A DNA stretch of 64,000 nt from Micromonospora sp. CP22 (GTDB lineage: Bacteria; Actinomycetota; Actinomycetes; Mycobacteriales; Micromonosporaceae), in the NCBI RefSeq assembly GCF_009712475.1, contig NZ_VCJO01000002.1, positions 496,001-560,000 on the forward strand, given 5' to 3'. Made by a program: the position numbers and the translations under genes. Positions within the stretch are counted from its first letter, which is position 1. Each line of letters opens with the position of its first letter. The notes under the pieces are model-generated. The model did not search any database, had not been told where the DNA came from, and saw only the letters and a program-made list of their open reading frames with translations. Shown piece by piece: positions 12,294 to 19,668 of the stretch.

Positions 12294-12301
12294 GGTGTGG
12301 G

Positions 12302-12375
12302 TGGAGCTGAGGGGATTTGAACCCCTGACCCCCTCGATGCGAACGAGGTGCGCTACCGGTCTGCGCCACAGCCCC
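12302..12375 (-). tRNA. tRNA-Ala (anticodon CGC)
   Basis: Read on the minus strand, a 74-base cloverleaf begins GGGGCTG and its 3' acceptor arm is CAGCTCC with discriminator A; the seven acceptor pairs include one G-T. The anticodon stem is CCTCG/CGAGG with loop TTCGCAT, giving anticodon CGC for the alanine codon GCG. The T arm is GGGGT-TCAAATC-CCC-like. CCA is not encoded. The gene lies between the 3' end of sepX and the DUF6086/MFS region. Confidence 0.93.
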
Positions 12376-12631: not shown

Positions 12632-13534
12632 TTAGGCGGAGTGGGAGCCGGGGCCGGTTTCGTAGGGGCGACCGCGTAGGCCACCGGCCCGGCGGTAGGA
12701 CACCGAGCCGCCGTTGGCGGCCTGCGGCAGGTCGGCCGGGCGGTCCAGGCCCATCGCGTTGCGCCGGACGGATTCTCGCTGGGCGGCCAGGCGGCGCTGC
12801 GCCTCCCGGCGGGCGGCGGCCCGGCGGGCCTGTTCCCGGCGTACCTCGGCCTGACGAGCCGCCAGCCAGGCGGCCTCGCGGGCCCGGGCCCGGCGTCGGC
12901 GGCGGTCGGCGACCGCACGGGCACGCAGGTGTACGACGTACACGATCAGCAGGGTGGCGGTGACCGCGAAACTGATCCAGAATCCTGGGCCGACGACCAG
13001 CACACCGACCAGCTCGACGGCGTTGAGCAGCACCAGCGCGGCGAGCACCCGGCGGCGGCGGTAGATGGCGGGGGTGTGGTGGTGCCGCCGGTCGGGCCGA
13101 CGTCGGGGTCGACCCCCTCCTGCCGGTACGGCACGTAACCGGCTCGGCCGACCGGAGCGGCGCGGAACAGCGCGATCACCGGCCGCGCCCCGAGTGGTTC
13201 CGTCAGCGGGACGCGTGGATGATTGGCCGTCGTCAGCTGAGCGACGGGGCTGAGGAGGAACCGCGCGGCGCAGGGCGGGCGGTCCGGAGACCGGAGCGGC
13301 GAGGCCACCGGAGCTAGGGCTCTCACTGAGGGTGATCACCAGGGCACGGGAGGGGTTGATCGGTCGCCGACCGGGGACAGTGCGACGGCGTCGGCGGCGC
13401 TGGAGCACCCGCGCCGTCGACTGCGCCCGCTCCGCCACCAGCCGCTCGGCGGCGTCGTACCGGCGAACCAGCGCCGGAGCGAGGGCGAGCAGCCCGGCGG
13501 CGGCGAGGACGGCGAGGAGCACCGAGGTCGGCAC
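12632..13534 (-). CDS. sepX: Divisome membrane protein SepX/GlpR
   Basis: A 300-residue protein with an N-terminal membrane anchor (VPTSVLLAVLAAAGLLALAP), the basic segment RVLQRRRRRRTVPGRRPINP, a long disordered linker, a pair of hydrophobic segments near residues 185-230, and an Arg/Ala-rich coiled tail. This architecture is that of SepX of Streptomyces, called GlpR in Corynebacterium, the membrane partner of the gephyrin-like Glp in cell division. GTG at 13534 is chosen since GGGAGG lies 6-7 bases upstream. It is the last gene of the galU-glp-rimJ-sepX set, which matches the known linkage with glp. Confidence 0.88.
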   Translation of the reverse strand: MPTSVLLAVLAAAGLLALAPALVRRYDAAERLVAERAQSTARVLQRRRRRRTVPGRRPINPSRALVITLSESPSSGGLAAPVSGPPALRRAVPPQPRRSADDGQSSTRPADGTTRGAAGDRAVPRRSGRPSRLRAVPAGGGRPRRRPDRRHHHTPAIYRRRRVLAALVLLNAVELVGVLVVGPGFWISFAVTATLLIVYVVHLRARAVADRRRRRARAREAAWLAARQAEVRREQARRAAARREAQRRLAAQRESVRRNAMGLDRPADLPQAANGGSVSYRRAGGLRGRPYETGPGSHSA

Positions 13535-13719
13535 CCTCACCCCTCCCGTCACCAGAGATTCGGAGCAGACGCCGACCGCCGCAGGATCTTCCACCGATCG
13601 GCGTCGGCGACGTGAATCATGCGGGGCGGGCAGCGCCTGCCGCAGCTTGCAGTTACCTGAGGTTACGGGTCACCATCGCCGGAACCGCCGCGCCGCGCCG
13701 ATCCCGCACGTGGGACGAC

Positions 13720-14358
13720 TCACGGGGTACGGGCGCGCAGCCGGTGCCAGCGGGCCAGCAGGCCGCCCTCGGCCGCGATCTCCTCGCTGGTCATCGCGTA
13801 GCCGATGTGGTCGCGCCAGGCACCGTCGATGTGCATGTAGCGCGCGTGGTACGCCTCCTCGCGGAAGCCCAGCTTCTCCACCACCCGGCGGGACGGCACG
13901 TTCTCGGGGCGGATGTTCACCTCGATCCGGTGCAGCCCGCCCGGGCCGAAGGCGTGGTCGACCACCAGGGCCAACGCGGTCGGGATGACACCCCGGCCGG
14001 CGACCCGCCGGTCCACCCAGTAGCCGACGTAGCCGGAGCAGAAGGCCCGCCGCACGATGTTGCCCACGTTGATGTGGCCGACCAGCCGTTCTTCCCCGTC
14101 CTCGTACAGGCAGACCGCGAACGGCATCCCCTCACCGGTACGCCCGGAGCGTCGCTGGTCGCGATAGACCCACCGGAAGGTGGCCGGGGAGTTCAGGTCG
14201 TCCCAGTCACCGGGTGCCGACGATTCCCAGGGGGCCAGCCACTCCCGGTTGGCTCGGCGCACCTGCGACCAGGCCGTCGCGTCCGACCGCCGGTACGGAC
14301 GCAGCAGCACCGGGCCGTCGGAGAGCATCGCCGGCCAGCCAGGCGCTCGTCGGAACAC
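13720..14358 (-). CDS. GNAT acetyltransferase, RimJ/RimL type
   Basis: A 212-residue N-acetyltransferase with the RimJ pattern: early GPVLLRPYRRSDA, a central GYWVDRRVAGRGVIPTALAL acetyl-CoA-binding segment and HRIEVNIRPENVPSRRVVEKLGF. It would acetylate a protein N-terminus (ribosomal S5-like) or a small amine. GTG at 14358 has GGAGG about 5 bases upstream. It sits 27 bases after glp and before sepX in one transcription unit, a position conserved in actinobacteria as far as I recall. Confidence 0.9.
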   Translation of the reverse strand: MFRRAPGWPAMLSDGPVLLRPYRRSDATAWSQVRRANREWLAPWESSAPGDWDDLNSPATFRWVYRDQRRSGRTGEGMPFAVCLYEDGEERLVGHINVGNIVRRAFCSGYVGYWVDRRVAGRGVIPTALALVVDHAFGPGGLHRIEVNIRPENVPSRRVVEKLGFREEAYHARYMHIDGAWRDHIGYAMTSEEIAAEGGLLARWHRLRARTP

Positions 14359-14385: not shown

Positions 14386-15699
14386 TTACCGGCGGCGGTC
14401 CAGCAGCAACACGTCGACGGTGGAGCCGGCGGCGGCAGCGGTCACCCGCTCGCCGAGGACGAGAAGACCGTTCGCCTCTGCCAGGCCGGAAAGCGTGAAC
14501 GGACCGCCGTTGAGCGGTTGGACAGTGTAACCCCCGCCCCGCCGCTCGGCGACGTGCGCGGGCCGGAACTCGCGCAGTCCGGCCGGCGAGGAGACGGTTT
14601 CCAGCAGGTGCGCCCGTACGCTGGGACGGAACACCGGCTCCGCGCCGGCCAGCAGGTTGATCGCCGGCCGGGCCAGCACCTCGAAGCCGATCATCGCGGC
14701 CCCCGGGTCGCCGGGCAGGCAGACCACCGGCACCTCCTCGGCGCCGACGGTGCCGAAGCCGAGGGCGGTACCCGGATAGAGCGCCACGTCGGTGAAGGTG
14801 ACCGGGCCGGCGCGGTTGCCCTCCCGACGCGACAGGATCCGGCGGACCATGTCGCCCGGCCCGGTGCCGGTGCCGCCGGTAGTGATGATCAGGTCGGCGC
14901 GCAGGGTCTGGTCCTCCAGCAGCCCGCGCAGCCCCTCAGGGTCGTCGTCACAGATACCCACCCGGTACGCCAACGCTCCCGCCTCCGCCGCCGCGGCCGT
15001 CAGGGCGTGCGAGTTGGCGTCCACGACCTGGCCCGGTTGGCTGCCCCGACCCACGTCGACCAGTTCGTCTCCGGTGGCCACGATCACCACCCGGGGGCTC
15101 GGGCGCACCACCACGTGCCCGATGCCGGTGGCGGCGAGCACCGCCACCAGCGCGGGCGAGACGTAGGTGCCGGAGCGGGCGAGCAGCGCACCGGCCGCCA
15201 CCTCCTCCCCCGTCCGGCGGACCCCGTACCCCCGCTTCGGGACCCGGAAGATCTCCACTGCCGCCATGCCCTGATCGGTCCACTCGACCGGGACGACCAC
15301 GTCCGCGCCGATCGGCAGTGGCGCGCCGGCCGCCACCGAGAAACACGAGCCCGGGGTGAGGCGGACCGGCCGCCAGCTCGCCGCACCGAGGTCACCGACG
15401 ACGTTGAGTCGTACGGTGCGTCCGCCTGGCCGACTGGACTGGGCCGGGACGTACCCCGCGCCCCGGCCCCCACCCGCGATGTCCTCCCAGCGCGCCGCGT
15501 ACCCGTCCACGGCCGCCTGGTCGAAGGCCGGGAACGAGTGCGGGGCGACCACGTCCTCGGCGAGGACGTTGCCGTACGCCTGGGTGAGGTCGAGGTCGAG
15601 CGGAGGCAGCGCGCGCAACCTGCGCAGCACGCTGCCCAGGTAGTCGGCGAGCGGCGTCAACCCGTTTTCGGCCGCCTCGGCGTCGGCCGTCGTGGTCAT
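14386..15699 (-). CDS. glp: Gephyrin-like Glp / MoeA family protein
   Basis: A 437-residue MoeA-fold protein with the molybdopterin-binding domain signature ITTGGTGTGPGD and the C-terminal beta-barrel domain. MoeA inserts molybdate into adenylylated molybdopterin; the sepX/glpR-linked paralogue Glp instead acts with GlpR at the division septum in actinobacteria. Linkage to sepX and galU rather than to other moa/moe genes favours Glp. ATG at 15699 overlaps the galU stop by four bases (ATGA), so the two are coupled. It could retain molybdotransferase activity. Confidence 0.9.
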   Translation of the reverse strand: MTTTADAEAAENGLTPLADYLGSVLRRLRALPPLDLDLTQAYGNVLAEDVVAPHSFPAFDQAAVDGYAARWEDIAGGGRGAGYVPAQSSRPGGRTVRLNVVGDLGAASWRPVRLTPGSCFSVAAGAPLPIGADVVVPVEWTDQGMAAVEIFRVPKRGYGVRRTGEEVAAGALLARSGTYVSPALVAVLAATGIGHVVVRPSPRVVIVATGDELVDVGRGSQPGQVVDANSHALTAAAAEAGALAYRVGICDDDPEGLRGLLEDQTLRADLIITTGGTGTGPGDMVRRILSRREGNRAGPVTFTDVALYPGTALGFGTVGAEEVPVVCLPGDPGAAMIGFEVLARPAINLLAGAEPVFRPSVRAHLLETVSSPAGLREFRPAHVAERRGGGYTVQPLNGGPFTLSGLAEANGLLVLGERVTAAAAGSTVDVLLLDRRR

Positions 15700-16649
15700 G
15701 TATTCGGACCGCCCGACGCGTCGGAGTTGACGAACTCGACCAGCCACTTGCGGAACTCGCTGCCCAGATCCTCACGGTCGGCGGCGATCTGGACCACGGT
15801 CTGGAGGTAGCCCAGCGGCATCCCGGTGTCGTAGCGGGTGCCTCGGTAGACGATCGCGTGCACCGGTGTGCCCTCGGTACGCAGGATCTCCATCGCGTCG
15901 GTCAACTGGATCTCGCCGCCGCTGCCGGGCTTCGTCCGGCGGATGGCGTCGAAGATCTTGCCGGGCAGGACGTACCGGCCGAGCACGGCGAGGTTGCTCG
16001 GCGCCTCCTCCGGTTGCGGCTTCTCCACCATGCCTGTCACCTTCACGACCTCGCCGATGTCGGCCAGCTCGGACTCGGCCGGCTCGACGGAGGCGATCCC
16101 GTACCGCTTCGTCTCCGCCGGGTCGACCTCGAAGAAGGCGAGCACCACCCCACCCGTACGCGCCTGGAGTTCCAGCATGGCCGGCAGCAGCGGCTCGCTG
16201 GGTTTGACGAACTCGTCGCCGAGCAGCACCGCGAAGGGCTCGTCGCCCACGTGGGACTCGGCGTACCCGACGGCGTGCCCGAGACCCAGTTGCTCCGGCT
16301 GGCGGCAGGTGTAGATGGACGCCAGTTCCTCGGTCCGCTTGACGGCGGCGAGCAGGTCGGGCTTCTCCGCGAGTCGTTCCTCCAGGTCGGGGCGACGGTC
16401 GAAGTGGTCCACCATCGATGTCTTGCCCCGGCCGGTGATCAGCAGCACGTCGTTGATGCCGGCCTGTGCGGCTTCCTCGACGATGTACTGCAACACCGGC
16501 CGATCGACGACCGGCAGCAGTTCCTTGGGGACGGCCTTGGTGGCAGGCAGGAACCTGGTGGCCAGGCCGGCTGCCGGGATGACGGCTTTGACGGCACGGG
16601 GACGGCCGGTGACTGCGGCCGCTGAGGGGTTCGCTGAGTGCTCCGACAT
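15696..16649 (-). CDS. galU: UTP--glucose-1-phosphate uridylyltransferase
   Basis: A 317-residue enzyme making UDP-glucose for cell-wall polysaccharides and trehalose. The nucleotidyltransferase signature VIPAAGLATRFLPATKAVPK is at residues 23-42, followed by the sugar-nucleotide motifs KELLPVVDRPVLQYIVEEA and LGLGHAVGYAE, as in bacterial GalU. ATG at 16649 is 9 bases after the stop of the diguanylate cyclase gene and there is no clear ribosome site, suggesting coupling. The gene overlaps glp downstream. Confidence 0.96.
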   Translation of the reverse strand: MSEHSANPSAAAVTGRPRAVKAVIPAAGLATRFLPATKAVPKELLPVVDRPVLQYIVEEAAQAGINDVLLITGRGKTSMVDHFDRRPDLEERLAEKPDLLAAVKRTEELASIYTCRQPEQLGLGHAVGYAESHVGDEPFAVLLGDEFVKPSEPLLPAMLELQARTGGVVLAFFEVDPAETKRYGIASVEPAESELADIGEVVKVTGMVEKPQPEEAPSNLAVLGRYVLPGKIFDAIRRTKPGSGGEIQLTDAMEILRTEGTPVHAIVYRGTRYDTGMPLGYLQTVVQIAADREDLGSEFRKWLVEFVNSDASGGPNT

Positions 16650-16658
16650 GTCGCGAGA

Positions 16659-18920
16659 CTATCGGCCATCGGCATGTCTCGGCGGGTGAGGACCAGAAGA
16701 CGCGCCGCCCGTCGGACCGGTTCTGCCGGTGCCGGTGGTACCCGCCACGGCAGTCGGGTCGCCGCTGTGCTGGACGGCGTCGGAGCCGGCCGGCAGGTCG
16801 CCGGTGTCCGGCGTGTCGGGACCGGCCGGTACGTCGAGGCCGGCCCGAGGCAGCCCGTCGGCGGGGCTATGGGCCACCACCGACACCGGCACCTCCCGGG
16901 TCGGTGACGACTCCCGAGGCATCGCCAACCGCCAGGTGTCCCGGGTCGCGGCTTTCGCGGCGTAGAGCGCCTCGTCGGCCGCCGCCAACACCTGCGGTCC
17001 GGTGTCGGCGTGGTCGGGAAAGACGGCGATGCCGATGGAGACGGTCACCTGGATCGGCTCCCGGGCACCGGCGTGCCCCACCACCGTCACCGGGGTGTCC
17101 CGCACGGCCGAGCCGAGCCGCTCGGCGACGGTGGCCGCGCCTCGGGCGTCGGTTTCCGGCAGCAGCACCACGAACTCCTCCCCGCCGCGACGGAAGGCCA
17201 GATCCACCTCCCGGATCTCGCCGCGTATCCGCCGGGCGAACTCGGCCAGCACGGTGTCCCCGGCCGCGTGCCCGTACGTGTCGTTGACCGTCTTGAAGCG
17301 GTCCAGGTCGAGGGCGAGGACGCTGACCATCCGGCCGAACCGGCTGGCCCGTTCCACCTCCCGGCGCAGCGACTCGCGGAGGTACCGGTAGTTCCACAGC
17401 CCGGTCAGCGGGTCGGTCAGCGACAGCCGCTGCGCTTCCTCGTGCACCCGCACGTTGTGCACGGCGACCGCCGCGTGCCGGGCGAAGGTGCGCAGGGTGG
17501 CCAGGTCGTCGTCGTCGAACTCCTCCCCGCCGAGGCGGTCGTAGAGGGCCAGCACGCCGAGCACCACCTCCGCCGGGCGGCCGGCCGCCGGGGTCGCGCC
17601 CGGCGCGTCGGCTCCGGCGACGTCGGGGGCGGCGAAGGGCACCGCGATGTACGTCCGGCAGGGTGGCTCGTCCGAGGAGGAGCCCGTCGGTTCCGCCCGG
17701 CCCCGGCGCGGCTGGCCGGTCGCCGCGACCGCGCCGACCACCCCACAGCCCAGCGGCACCCGCAGTGGCGCGGTGCCGGGCCACCGGTCGTCAAGCCCTT
17801 CGCTGCACCGGGCGACGAGCTGCTCACCCTGCTCGGTGAGGAGCACGGCCCCCGCCCGCGCCCCGGTCGCGGCGAGCGCGCTGTGCAGGATCAGCCGCAG
17901 GATCCGGGGCAGGTCGTGGGTGCTGGCCAGCGTGTCGCCGAGCACCGCGAGGTGGCCGCGCAACTGGTCCCGGCTGCTGGTCAACGCCGCCAGGTAGCCG
18001 CCGGTCTCGCGGGTCATCCGGTTGAAGGCGACAGCCAACCGACCGATCTCGTCGCCGCTGCGTACCGGTACCCGGACGGTGAGGTCGCCGGTGGCGACGC
18101 GATCGGCCGCGACGGCCAGTTCCACCAGTGGCCGGGTGGTCACCCGGGCCAGTCGCCAGGCCACGGCCACGCCCAACAGGGCGGCCAGCAGCACCACGCC
18201 GACCAGCACCGCGTGCAGGCCGGGTGGCTGGTCGCTGGGTACGGAGAGCACCAGCGGCAGCGGCTGCCCGGCAGCGGGGCCGGCTCGGCGCACGTACCGC
18301 CCGTCGATGGTGCCGGTGACGCGCTCGTCGCGCAGTGACGCGGCGGCAGCCAGCACCGCGTCCCGACCGTTGCCGGATTCGGTGGTGTGGGCCACCTGGA
18401 CGGGCATCGCCCCGTCGAGCAGGGTCACCGCGACCCCGGTCACCGCGGCGAGTCGCGCGACGAAGGCGGGGTCGACCGGCTGAGCGGCGGCGACGGTACC
18501 CAGCGCCGAGCCGGCCGCGTCGCGCAACTGCACCCGCACCACCAGGGCGCTGACCGACGCGCCGGGTGGCTCCGGCGTCGCGCAGTCCCGCCAGGGCGGC
18601 GGGGGTGGGTTCGGGGTGGTGTAACTGACCCGACCGGTCGCGTCGGTGACGAGCACCGCGGTGGCCAGGCCCCGGCTGACCACCTGCGCGGCGGTTCCGG
18701 CGTGGTCGGCGGTGACGGCGACCGCGTCGGCGGCGGCCCGCAGTTGCTGGCAGAGCGCGTCGACCGAGGTACGCACGGCGGTGGCGGCCACCGCCAACCG
18801 CTCGGTGGCGCGGCTGCGGTCGACCGCCGCTACGGTGGAGGCGACGAAGACGGCACCGAGCAGGACCGGGCCGAACGCCACCGCCAGGAAGGCTGCGGTC
18901 AACCGCCCGCGTAGCGTCAA
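16659..18920 (-). CDS. Membrane diguanylate cyclase, HAMP-GAF-GGDEF
   Basis: A 753-residue sensor enzyme producing c-di-GMP from GTP. Transmembrane helices at about 8-32 and 235-258 enclose a periplasmic sensor region; HAMP 259-310, GAF about 335-490, GGDEF about 498-665. The active-site loop is GGEEF at 579-583 and an inhibitory I-site RxxD (R570, D573) sits exactly five residues before it, so both catalysis and product inhibition look intact. A low-complexity tail follows. The TTG at 18920 is preferred since it follows a GGGGGGAAGGGG ribosome site; the frame upstream overlaps the divergent gene. It heads the galU-glp-rimJ-sepX run with only a 9-base gap. Confidence 0.92.
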   Translation of the reverse strand: MTLRGRLTAAFLAVAFGPVLLGAVFVASTVAAVDRSRATERLAVAATAVRTSVDALCQQLRAAADAVAVTADHAGTAAQVVSRGLATAVLVTDATGRVSYTTPNPPPPPWRDCATPEPPGASVSALVVRVQLRDAAGSALGTVAAAQPVDPAFVARLAAVTGVAVTLLDGAMPVQVAHTTESGNGRDAVLAAAASLRDERVTGTIDGRYVRRAGPAAGQPLPLVLSVPSDQPPGLHAVLVGVVLLAALLGVAVAWRLARVTTRPLVELAVAADRVATGDLTVRVPVRSGDEIGRLAVAFNRMTRETGGYLAALTSSRDQLRGHLAVLGDTLASTHDLPRILRLILHSALAATGARAGAVLLTEQGEQLVARCSEGLDDRWPGTAPLRVPLGCGVVGAVAATGQPRRGRAEPTGSSSDEPPCRTYIAVPFAAPDVAGADAPGATPAAGRPAEVVLGVLALYDRLGGEEFDDDDLATLRTFARHAAVAVHNVRVHEEAQRLSLTDPLTGLWNYRYLRESLRREVERASRFGRMVSVLALDLDRFKTVNDTYGHAAGDTVLAEFARRIRGEIREVDLAFRRGGEEFVVLLPETDARGAATVAERLGSAVRDTPVTVVGHAGAREPIQVTVSIGIAVFPDHADTGPQVLAAADEALYAAKAATRDTWRLAMPRESSPTREVPVSVVAHSPADGLPRAGLDVPAGPDTPDTGDLPAGSDAVQHSGDPTAVAGTTGTGRTGPTGGASSGPHPPRHADGR

Positions 18921-19038
18921 CGCTTCCCCTTCCCCCCGGAAGTTGCGCGACCGTCGCTTGCGATGCTGACACAGAGCGACGGCTAGACAAACGTTGCGTG
19001 AGGAGTGTTGCGTGCCGGAATTTGCGGAAGGAGCGGAA

Positions 19039-19668
19039 GTGACGCATGACGCGAAGCAGACCGCTCGGATCAGGCTGCTCGCGAACCGCCGCGCCCGCAC
19101 CGAGGCCGAGCGCGCCACCGCCGCAGCGCGGGTCCAGGCCGAGCTGTCCTCCCTGGTCCGCCGGCTGCGGCCGGGGCGGCTGGCCGCGTACGTCCCGGTC
19201 GGCGGGGAACCGGGTGGCCCGGACCTGCCGGCGGTGCTCGCCGCCGCGCTGCCCCCCGGTGCGGACCTACTGCTGCCGGTGCTCCGCGATGATCTCGACC
19301 TGGACTGGGCCGCGTGGGACGGGCCGCAGGCGATGGTCGCCGCCGGACGCGGCATCCGCGAGCCGGTCGGGCCCCGGCTGGGGGTGACCGCAGTGGCCAC
19401 CGCCGAGCTGGTGGTGGTGCCGGCGCTGGCGGTGGACCGCCGGGGCATCCGCCTGGGACGCGGCGGCGGTTCGTACGATCGGGCCCTGGCACGGGTGACG
19501 GCGACCGCGCTCACGGTGGTGCCGCTGCACGACGGCGAGCTGCTGGAGGAGTTGCCCGCCGAGCCGCACGACCGGCCGGTGCGTGCGGTGGTCACCCCGG
19601 AGCACGGGCTGACGGCCATCTCGGGTGTCGTGCCACACACTTCCGCTGGACGAACCGGGGGGCGATGA
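19039..19668 (+). CDS. 5-formyltetrahydrofolate cyclo-ligase
   Basis: A 209-residue enzyme that converts 5-formyl-THF to 5,10-methenyl-THF with ATP. The family signature GRGGGSYDRAL is present near residue 150, and the N-terminal helix begins with K and R residues typical of the ATP site. GTG at 19039 has AAGGAG at 19028-19033; an upstream in-frame GTG at 19012 is less well placed. It is divergent from the diguanylate cyclase and lies just before the CIRCE operator of the fmdB-like gene. Confidence 0.9.
   Translation: MTHDAKQTARIRLLANRRARTEAERATAAARVQAELSSLVRRLRPGRLAAYVPVGGEPGGPDLPAVLAAALPPGADLLLPVLRDDLDLDWAAWDGPQAMVAAGRGIREPVGPRLGVTAVATAELVVVPALAVDRRGIRLGRGGGSYDRALARVTATALTVVPLHDGELLEELPAEPHDRPVRAVVTPEHGLTAISGVVPHTSAGRTGGR

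Follow-up and report, generated by a model that had tools for sequence, protein, structure and literature searches.

A diguanylate cyclase gene, probably of long residence upstream of galU in the Micromonosporaceae, whose stop codon overlaps a predicted leaderless galU promoter

The window analyzed here is a stretch of 64,000 nucleotides from Micromonospora sp. CP22 (assembly GCF_009712475.1, contig NZ_VCJO01000002.1, positions 496,001 to 560,000), and our subject is a gene for a predicted membrane-bound diguanylate cyclase (DGC) that lies directly upstream of galU. On the minus strand the order is DGC, galU, glp, a rimJ-like gene and sepX/glpR, and the gene for 5-formyltetrahydrofolate cyclo-ligase (FCL) diverges from position 19012. 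Our comparisons make it likely that the DGC is an old member of this locus, inherited by descent between FCL and galU and transcribed from a promoter of its own, and that the galU block is transcribed mainly from a leaderless promoter. The features discussed in the text are as follows.

16659..18920, minus strand: DGC gene, encoding a transmembrane segment, a dCache-like sensor, a second transmembrane segment, HAMP, GAF and GGDEF domains and a disordered tail
15696..16649, minus strand: galU, with ATG at 16649, predicted to be leaderless
14386..15699, minus strand: glp (MoeA-like), in ATGA overlap with galU
13720..14358, minus strand: rimJ-like acetyltransferase gene, under the NCBIfam cut-off
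12632..13540, minus strand: sepX/glpR, NCBIfam SepX_GlpR_4 above its cut-off
19012..19668, plus strand: FCL gene, divergent from the DGC gene, with a GTG start and AGGAG upstream
16656..16661, minus strand: TAGTCT, predicted -10 box of galU; its first three bases, TAG (16661-16659), serve as the stop codon of the DGC
16662..16709, minus strand: last 16 DGC codons, here GGASSGPHPPRHADGR; family consensus GGASSGPxxPRQxRGR
18213..18839, minus strand: extracytoplasmic, dCache-like sensor domain (residues 28-236), with Cys57 and Cys113
18959..18974, minus strand: CTGTGTCAGCATCGCA, in the FCL-DGC divergent gap, a candidate part of the DGC's own promoter

Nine bases separate the DGC stop codon (TAG, 16661-16659) from the galU ATG at 16649. 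An earlier note on this DNA had described this spacing, the galU-glp overlap, which reads ATGA, and the presence of rimJ and sepX behind them, and all of this agrees with our results. SepX/GlpR is identified by model NF050101 (SepX_GlpR_4) at 183.8 bits against a cut-off of 110. The names GalU, Glp and RimJ are those of the best model in each case together with the gene context, each protein scoring under the curated cut-off: TIGR01099 gives GalU 299 bits (cut-off 326.8), NF008072 gives RimJ 84.3 bits (cut-off 190), and Glp_gephyrin gives Glp 413.3 bits (cut-off 475), with MoeA_actino next at 296.8, so that Glp is named by rank and context only. For FCL the most likely start is GTG 19012, behind AGGAG and upstream of the start first assumed; the region around this codon is conserved between genera. 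Downstream of sepX lies a gene for tRNA-Ala (CGC; 12300-12375, minus strand), the sole match of an Rfam scan of the window at gathering scores.

The DGC probably starts at TTG 18920, with GGGGAAG upstream, and would then be 753 amino acids long; this start agrees with the N terminus common to the orthologues, (M/V)TLRxRL. An open frame of 1007 amino acids was rejected as the extent of the protein; its upstream part runs into the FCL gene. The HAMP, GAF and GGDEF domains all score above their Pfam cut-offs, the last with 151.1 bits for PF00990 (cut-off 23.8) and 166.8 bits for TIGR00254 (cut-off 37.4). The protein carries RGGEEF and, five residues N-terminal of GGEEF, the I-site REVD. Across 27 aligned orthologues, D538, D540, N546, D547, G580, E581, E582 and the I-site residues R570 and D573 are invariant, and G579 and F583 of the GGEEF are nearly so. 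We take the GGDEF/GGEEF signature, the metal-binding aspartates and the RxxD residues of the I-site to have their usual roles. The gene product is apparently an intact enzyme, as the earlier note had proposed; it is one of 15 GGDEF matches in the whole genome, and its residues 682-753 are predicted to be disordered in the structure model.

The N-terminal extracytoplasmic sensor, which had escaped the earlier reader, was modeled by AlphaFold with a predicted local distance difference test (pLDDT) of 94.0. In Foldseek this model matches solved sensor domains, among them those of LuxQ, CtaA and PctA, with 12 matches at E values of 0.001 or lower; template modeling scores (TM-scores) normalized by query length are 0.52 to 0.59 in nine of these and 0.36 to 0.42 in three. 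We take the sensor domains of LuxQ, CtaA and PctA to be of the dCache type. No Pfam Cache family matches the sensor of the window protein, and among the 27 orthologues dCache_1 is found in 2 (best E value, 0.0082) and CHASE4 in 1. We therefore describe the sensor as dCache-like by its predicted fold, not as a member of dCache. Cys57 and Cys113 occur together in 26 of the 27 orthologues and are both absent from the remaining one (L117), which suggests that they form a disulfide.

The counts that follow come from two samples. The family sample holds 60 stretches around galU from 43 of the 44 sampled genera of the Micromonosporaceae, of which 58 were counted; a piece of 101 bases (L094) and the second galU of one genome (L101, G039) were left out. 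This second galU is divergent, 57% identical and adjoined by none of the locus genes. The class sample holds 60 stretches from 32 other families, hand-picked from GalU matches and not random; in five of them (L110, L137, L147, L162 and L163) the galU copy has neither Glp nor FCL near it, and some contigs begin 1 to 2 kb before galU (L116 and L143). GalU itself was detected in 148 of the 150 sampled family genomes and in 158 of 197 class genomes.

On the minus strand the junction between the DGC and galU reads GATAGTCTCGCGACATG. Its TAGTCT, a -10-like element that the earlier note had also passed over, ends 6 bases upstream of the galU ATG, the position at which TANNNT marks a leaderless start (6 to 7 nt before the start codon), and no Shine-Dalgarno sequence precedes galU in the window or the boxed family starts that were scored. 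By one procedure applied to every gene, with starts taken from profile positions, the box precedes galU in 56 of 58 family loci and 57 of 60 class loci, against a background of 0.5% per start codon and 1.1% per ATG. The same search finds it before glp in 0/58 family and 1/49 class loci, before rimJ in 0/58 and 0/53, and before the DGC in 0/53 and 0/11; within the family it precedes FCL in 1 of 55 loci and SepX in 1 of 52. The two family loci that lack it (L053 and L078) have TAGTCT before an ATG further upstream, and the three class loci without it (L137, L162 and L163) hold galU copies that lie outside this locus. An earlier pattern expression for galU had left 7 of the 58 family loci and 1 of the 60 class loci without a match. 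Seven boxed class starts were flagged as Shine-Dalgarno-like solely because TAAGGT contains AAGG. The box does not depend on the DGC: it is present in 43 of the 46 loci without a GGDEF upstream, and the family locus that lacks the DGC (L074, genome G025) has TAATCT at the same place. These data make a leaderless promoter of its own very probable for galU, and we infer that this promoter belongs to the locus throughout the class.

In 38 of 57 family loci the DGC stop codon is the TAG of the TAGnnT before galU, and with the window and four class loci this holds for 43 of the 73 genes examined. TAG is the stop codon of the DGC in 40 of 57 family loci, against 7/58 for GalU, 3/58 for Glp, 8/58 for RimJ and 8/54 for FCL. 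Where the DGC stops elsewhere, the gap to galU ranges from -35 nt (L064, whose sequence contains Ns) to 279 nt, and the -10 stays in place. Sharing of a stop codon and a box between two long frames (at least 200 and at least 150 codons) occurs once in the window, and a search of the 118 neighbor loci returned 49 sites at galU and 8 elsewhere; of these 8, the one in L096 is galU as well. The constant gap of 9 to 10 bp in loci whose box holds the DGC stop can thus be ascribed to promoter constraint rather than translational coupling, and no such coupling need be assumed.

The earlier note had placed the DGC at the head of an operon with galU, glp, rimJ and sepX. The gene order stands, and the common strand, the 9-bp gap and a junction free of terminators all favor a single operon in which the DGC promoter would be the main source of galU-glp-rimJ-sepX mRNA. 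Because the galU box is conserved with or without the DGC, however, the gap is poor evidence for an operon. The class-wide leaderless-type -10, which includes those 43 loci without a GGDEF, and its fixed position where the gap varies from -35 to 279 nt both argue against the DGC promoter as the main source, which we consider unlikely. The proposed coexpression is thereby weakened by a promoter-like element, recognized by comparison, that is also found where there is no DGC; read-through from the DGC into galU, in addition to the galU promoter, is possible.

Conservation upstream of galU extends beyond the box. Among 29 loci from the same and neighboring genera, pairwise identity is 0.89 to 0.91 over the 60 bases before galU and 0.38 to 0.44 beyond them. 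This block encodes the last 16 residues of the DGC (consensus GGASSGPxxPRQxRGR), which follow a linker that varies in length; the end of the window protein is degenerate (PRHADGR). The sharp edge at -60 would suit an operator of a galU regulator, with the peptide as its accidental translation, and so would a genome of the same genus (L046) that keeps the block (similarity to its consensus, 0.83) even though its DGC stops 96 bases earlier with a different tail; being of the same genus, this locus carries limited weight. A recent frameshift or an error of assembly may account for its early stop. Codon use points the other way. Third positions vary most (conservation of 0.843, against 0.957 and 0.963 at first and second positions), and the ratio of nonsynonymous to synonymous differences (pN/pS), given here as plain ratios without a significance test, is lowest in the DGC frame: 0.67 over the last 16 codons, against 1.07 and 2.19 in the shifted frames; 0.54 in frame over the last 8 codons; and 0.42 among the nearest genera, against 2.06 and 2.42 shifted. 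Moreover, similarity to the consensus outside the -10 is mostly lost where the DGC stops earlier, with a mean of 0.41 in the 19 early-stopping family loci, against 0.77 in the 36 that end in the box; it is 0.40, and thus largely gone, in L074 without the DGC, and averages 0.32 in the class. Since in-frame pN/pS is lowest and the block is largely lost in the early-stopping loci and in L074, the 60 bp look to be conserved mainly as peptide and the box as promoter, and the operator is an improbable explanation. A promoter spanning the whole block had also been considered; the codon test and the comparison with early-stopping loci led us to replace it by a peptide plus a -10. This reading should not be pressed, given the degenerate end in the window, the block DNA retained in L046 and the early-stopping members of the family, which do without the C-terminal peptide.

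At the other end of the gene, AGCAT within CTGTGTCAGCATCGCA is identical in all 16 aligned sequences, and the exact 16-mer is found in 8 of them, the window included. This makes CTGTGTCAGCATCGCA a candidate regulatory site for the DGC, be it a promoter or an operator.

In 57 of the 58 family loci galU has the DGC as its immediate upstream neighbor, with Glp and RimJ behind galU. FCL is divergent upstream in all 57 except three stretches (L050, L053 and L082) that contig ends cut inside the DGC; L064 holds Ns in the DGC. In the sole exception, L074, no DGC lies between FCL and galU. Further along the locus, SepX was not detected in 8 of 58 family loci by BLAST and in 6 of 58 by profile; in one locus (L102) its match lies on the strand opposite galU, unlike other family loci with SepX, and in another (L084) about 600 bases separate galU and rimJ, with glp short or broken. 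Of the 60 class loci, 13 have the DGC immediately before galU, and these represent 11 of the 32 other families; in one of the 13 (L113) the GGDEF alone was recognized. The DGC lies 4.6 kb upstream in L145 and is absent from 46 loci, including L109 and the five off-locus galU copies. In a separate survey, among the matches listed (80 loci), the whole protein was matched in 2, both Micromonospora, and partially in the other 78.

In a tree that included the 14 other GGDEF proteins of this genome and the best 25 of 89 survey GGDEFs (L053 was left out), a single clade with a support of 0.916 takes in 71 of the 72 GGDEFs located upstream of galU and none of the 14 paralogs; the exception, L109, is another gene at a distance of 3.1 kb. 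Distances between the GGDEFs follow those of GalU, Glp and RimJ combined (Mantel r of 0.89 over 67 loci, L050, L053, L064, L109 and L113 being excluded; 0.84 within the family; 0.68 for 13 nonfamily loci, with L145 and without L113), and for the full set and the nonfamily loci 0 of 999 permutations reached the observed r. The simplest reading is that the DGC is an old resident of the locus that has been lost several times. Transfer or repeated arrival in several families would also produce a patchy distribution such as that of the class, with its 11 changes and undecided root state. The agreement with neighboring genes among the 13 nonfamily loci, however, and a number of changes well below what 200 label shuffles gave (minimum, 24; mean, 29.5) favor descent with loss. 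We regard transfer as quite unlikely to account for the pattern as a whole, and some transfer between families is possible. The lineage-specific insertion suggested in the earlier note, for which one might cite the lack of the DGC at galU in 20 of the 32 other families sampled and in all three loci of the other sampled family of the same order, is refuted by gene order at the genus and family levels and is highly improbable overall, given its presence in 57 of 58 family loci and 11 other families as a single clade.

Taken together, these observations point to the following scheme. The dCache-like domain, held by its disulfide, would probably sense an extracytoplasmic ligand, and a change in ligand may be passed through HAMP and GAF to a GGDEF dimer; the fold and the conserved residues suggest that the enzyme makes cyclic di-GMP (c-di-GMP) with product feedback at the I-site. 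The DGC, probably passed on by vertical descent, lies between galU and the divergent FCL; it has a start and a ribosome-binding site of its own and is probably transcribed from its own promoter in the gap toward FCL, while galU-glp-rimJ, with or without sepX, is probably transcribed mainly from the leaderless promoter directly before galU, whose -10 box (TAGTCT or similar) would also supply the DGC stop in two thirds of the family loci.

Several results weigh against this scheme. The model of the whole DGC has a predicted template modeling score (pTM) of only 0.43, GGEEF is replaced by GGEEL or SGEEF in four upstream GGDEFs (L144, L145, L152 and L158), and GAF is undetectable in three family DGCs (L076, L088 and L093). 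The class distribution is patchy, with 11 parsimony changes on a tree of 106 tips that has weak deep nodes and leaves the root state undecided. The box is not unique to galU, as it also precedes FCL in 9 of 51 and SepX in 6 of 30 class loci, and a -10 match alone is not proof of a transcription start site. A sigma-70 scan, which requires both hexamers and is blind to promoters with only a -10, found no promoter-like site at the junction. The terminator scan found none there either (its one terminator-like site, inside glp, compares with 1.6 expected), so that the DGC transcript may continue into galU. Finally, TAG stops are not in the majority among the class DGCs (6/15).

A more far-reaching interpretation is that transcription and translation of the DGC, by ending inside the galU promoter, tune galU-glp-sepX through interference instead of coexpression, which would make the junction a compact regulatory device, and that the conserved PRQxRGR tethers the enzyme to a partner, perhaps one in the divisome. 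We consider this speculative and rather doubtful; if it is true, c-di-GMP would be linked to division in this family. As it stands, the functional link of the DGC to Glp and SepX rests only on neighborhood. The DGC itself is of an ordinary kind; what is unexpected is the age and stability of its position, and the overlap of stop codon and promoter, though unusual, can be explained. The long retention of a c-di-GMP enzyme at galU-glp-sepX makes a link between c-di-GMP and actinobacterial division directly testable, and the overlap gives reason for caution, because a constant short intergenic gap can reflect a shared stop codon and -10 box and is not by itself evidence for an operon.

Searches of the open-licence literature, at the level of main texts, turned up no report of this DGC or of a leaderless galU, and the available part of PMC6448022 has nothing on galU. 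The window galU nevertheless resembles known leaderless genes in the position and sequence of its box. The available parts of the sources describe TANNNT about 12 bp before the start codon of actinobacterial leaderless genes (PMC3160421); TANNNT centered 7 to 12 bp before 73% of primary start sites in Mycobacterium tuberculosis, with no conserved -35 (PMC3898074); and, in Actinoplanes, TAnnnT before 98% of the start sites examined, leaderless starts in 14% of genes and also a -35 motif (PMC7682106). Unlike the leaderless genes as described in those parts of PMC3160421 and PMC3898074, the galU box lends its TAG to the upstream gene as a stop codon in 38 of 57 family loci. The locus also resembles the glp-glpR/sepX divisome locus, as far as that is set out in the available parts of PMC10522489 and PMC8748795, in that glp lies near sepX/glpR, surroundings that are said to be conserved (PMC10522489). 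It differs from the locus described there in having a DGC before galU; the words GGDEF, c-di-GMP and diguanylate do not appear in the main text of PMC10522489. The cellulose operons of Proteus and Enterobacter, for which the available part of PMC7112194 names GalU and a PAS-GGDEF locus, appear from that description to be a different system. Among GGDEF cyclases with a membrane sensor, HAMP and GAF, the window DGC is alike in its GGDEF fold, its GGEEF and I-site and its HAMP and GAF domains, and its top Foldseek match is the diguanylate cyclase DcsBis (PDB 4zmu); it is set apart by its extracytoplasmic sensor, which is dCache-like and has two conserved cysteines, and by the C-terminal peptide that, in most family loci, is carried on a disordered tail.

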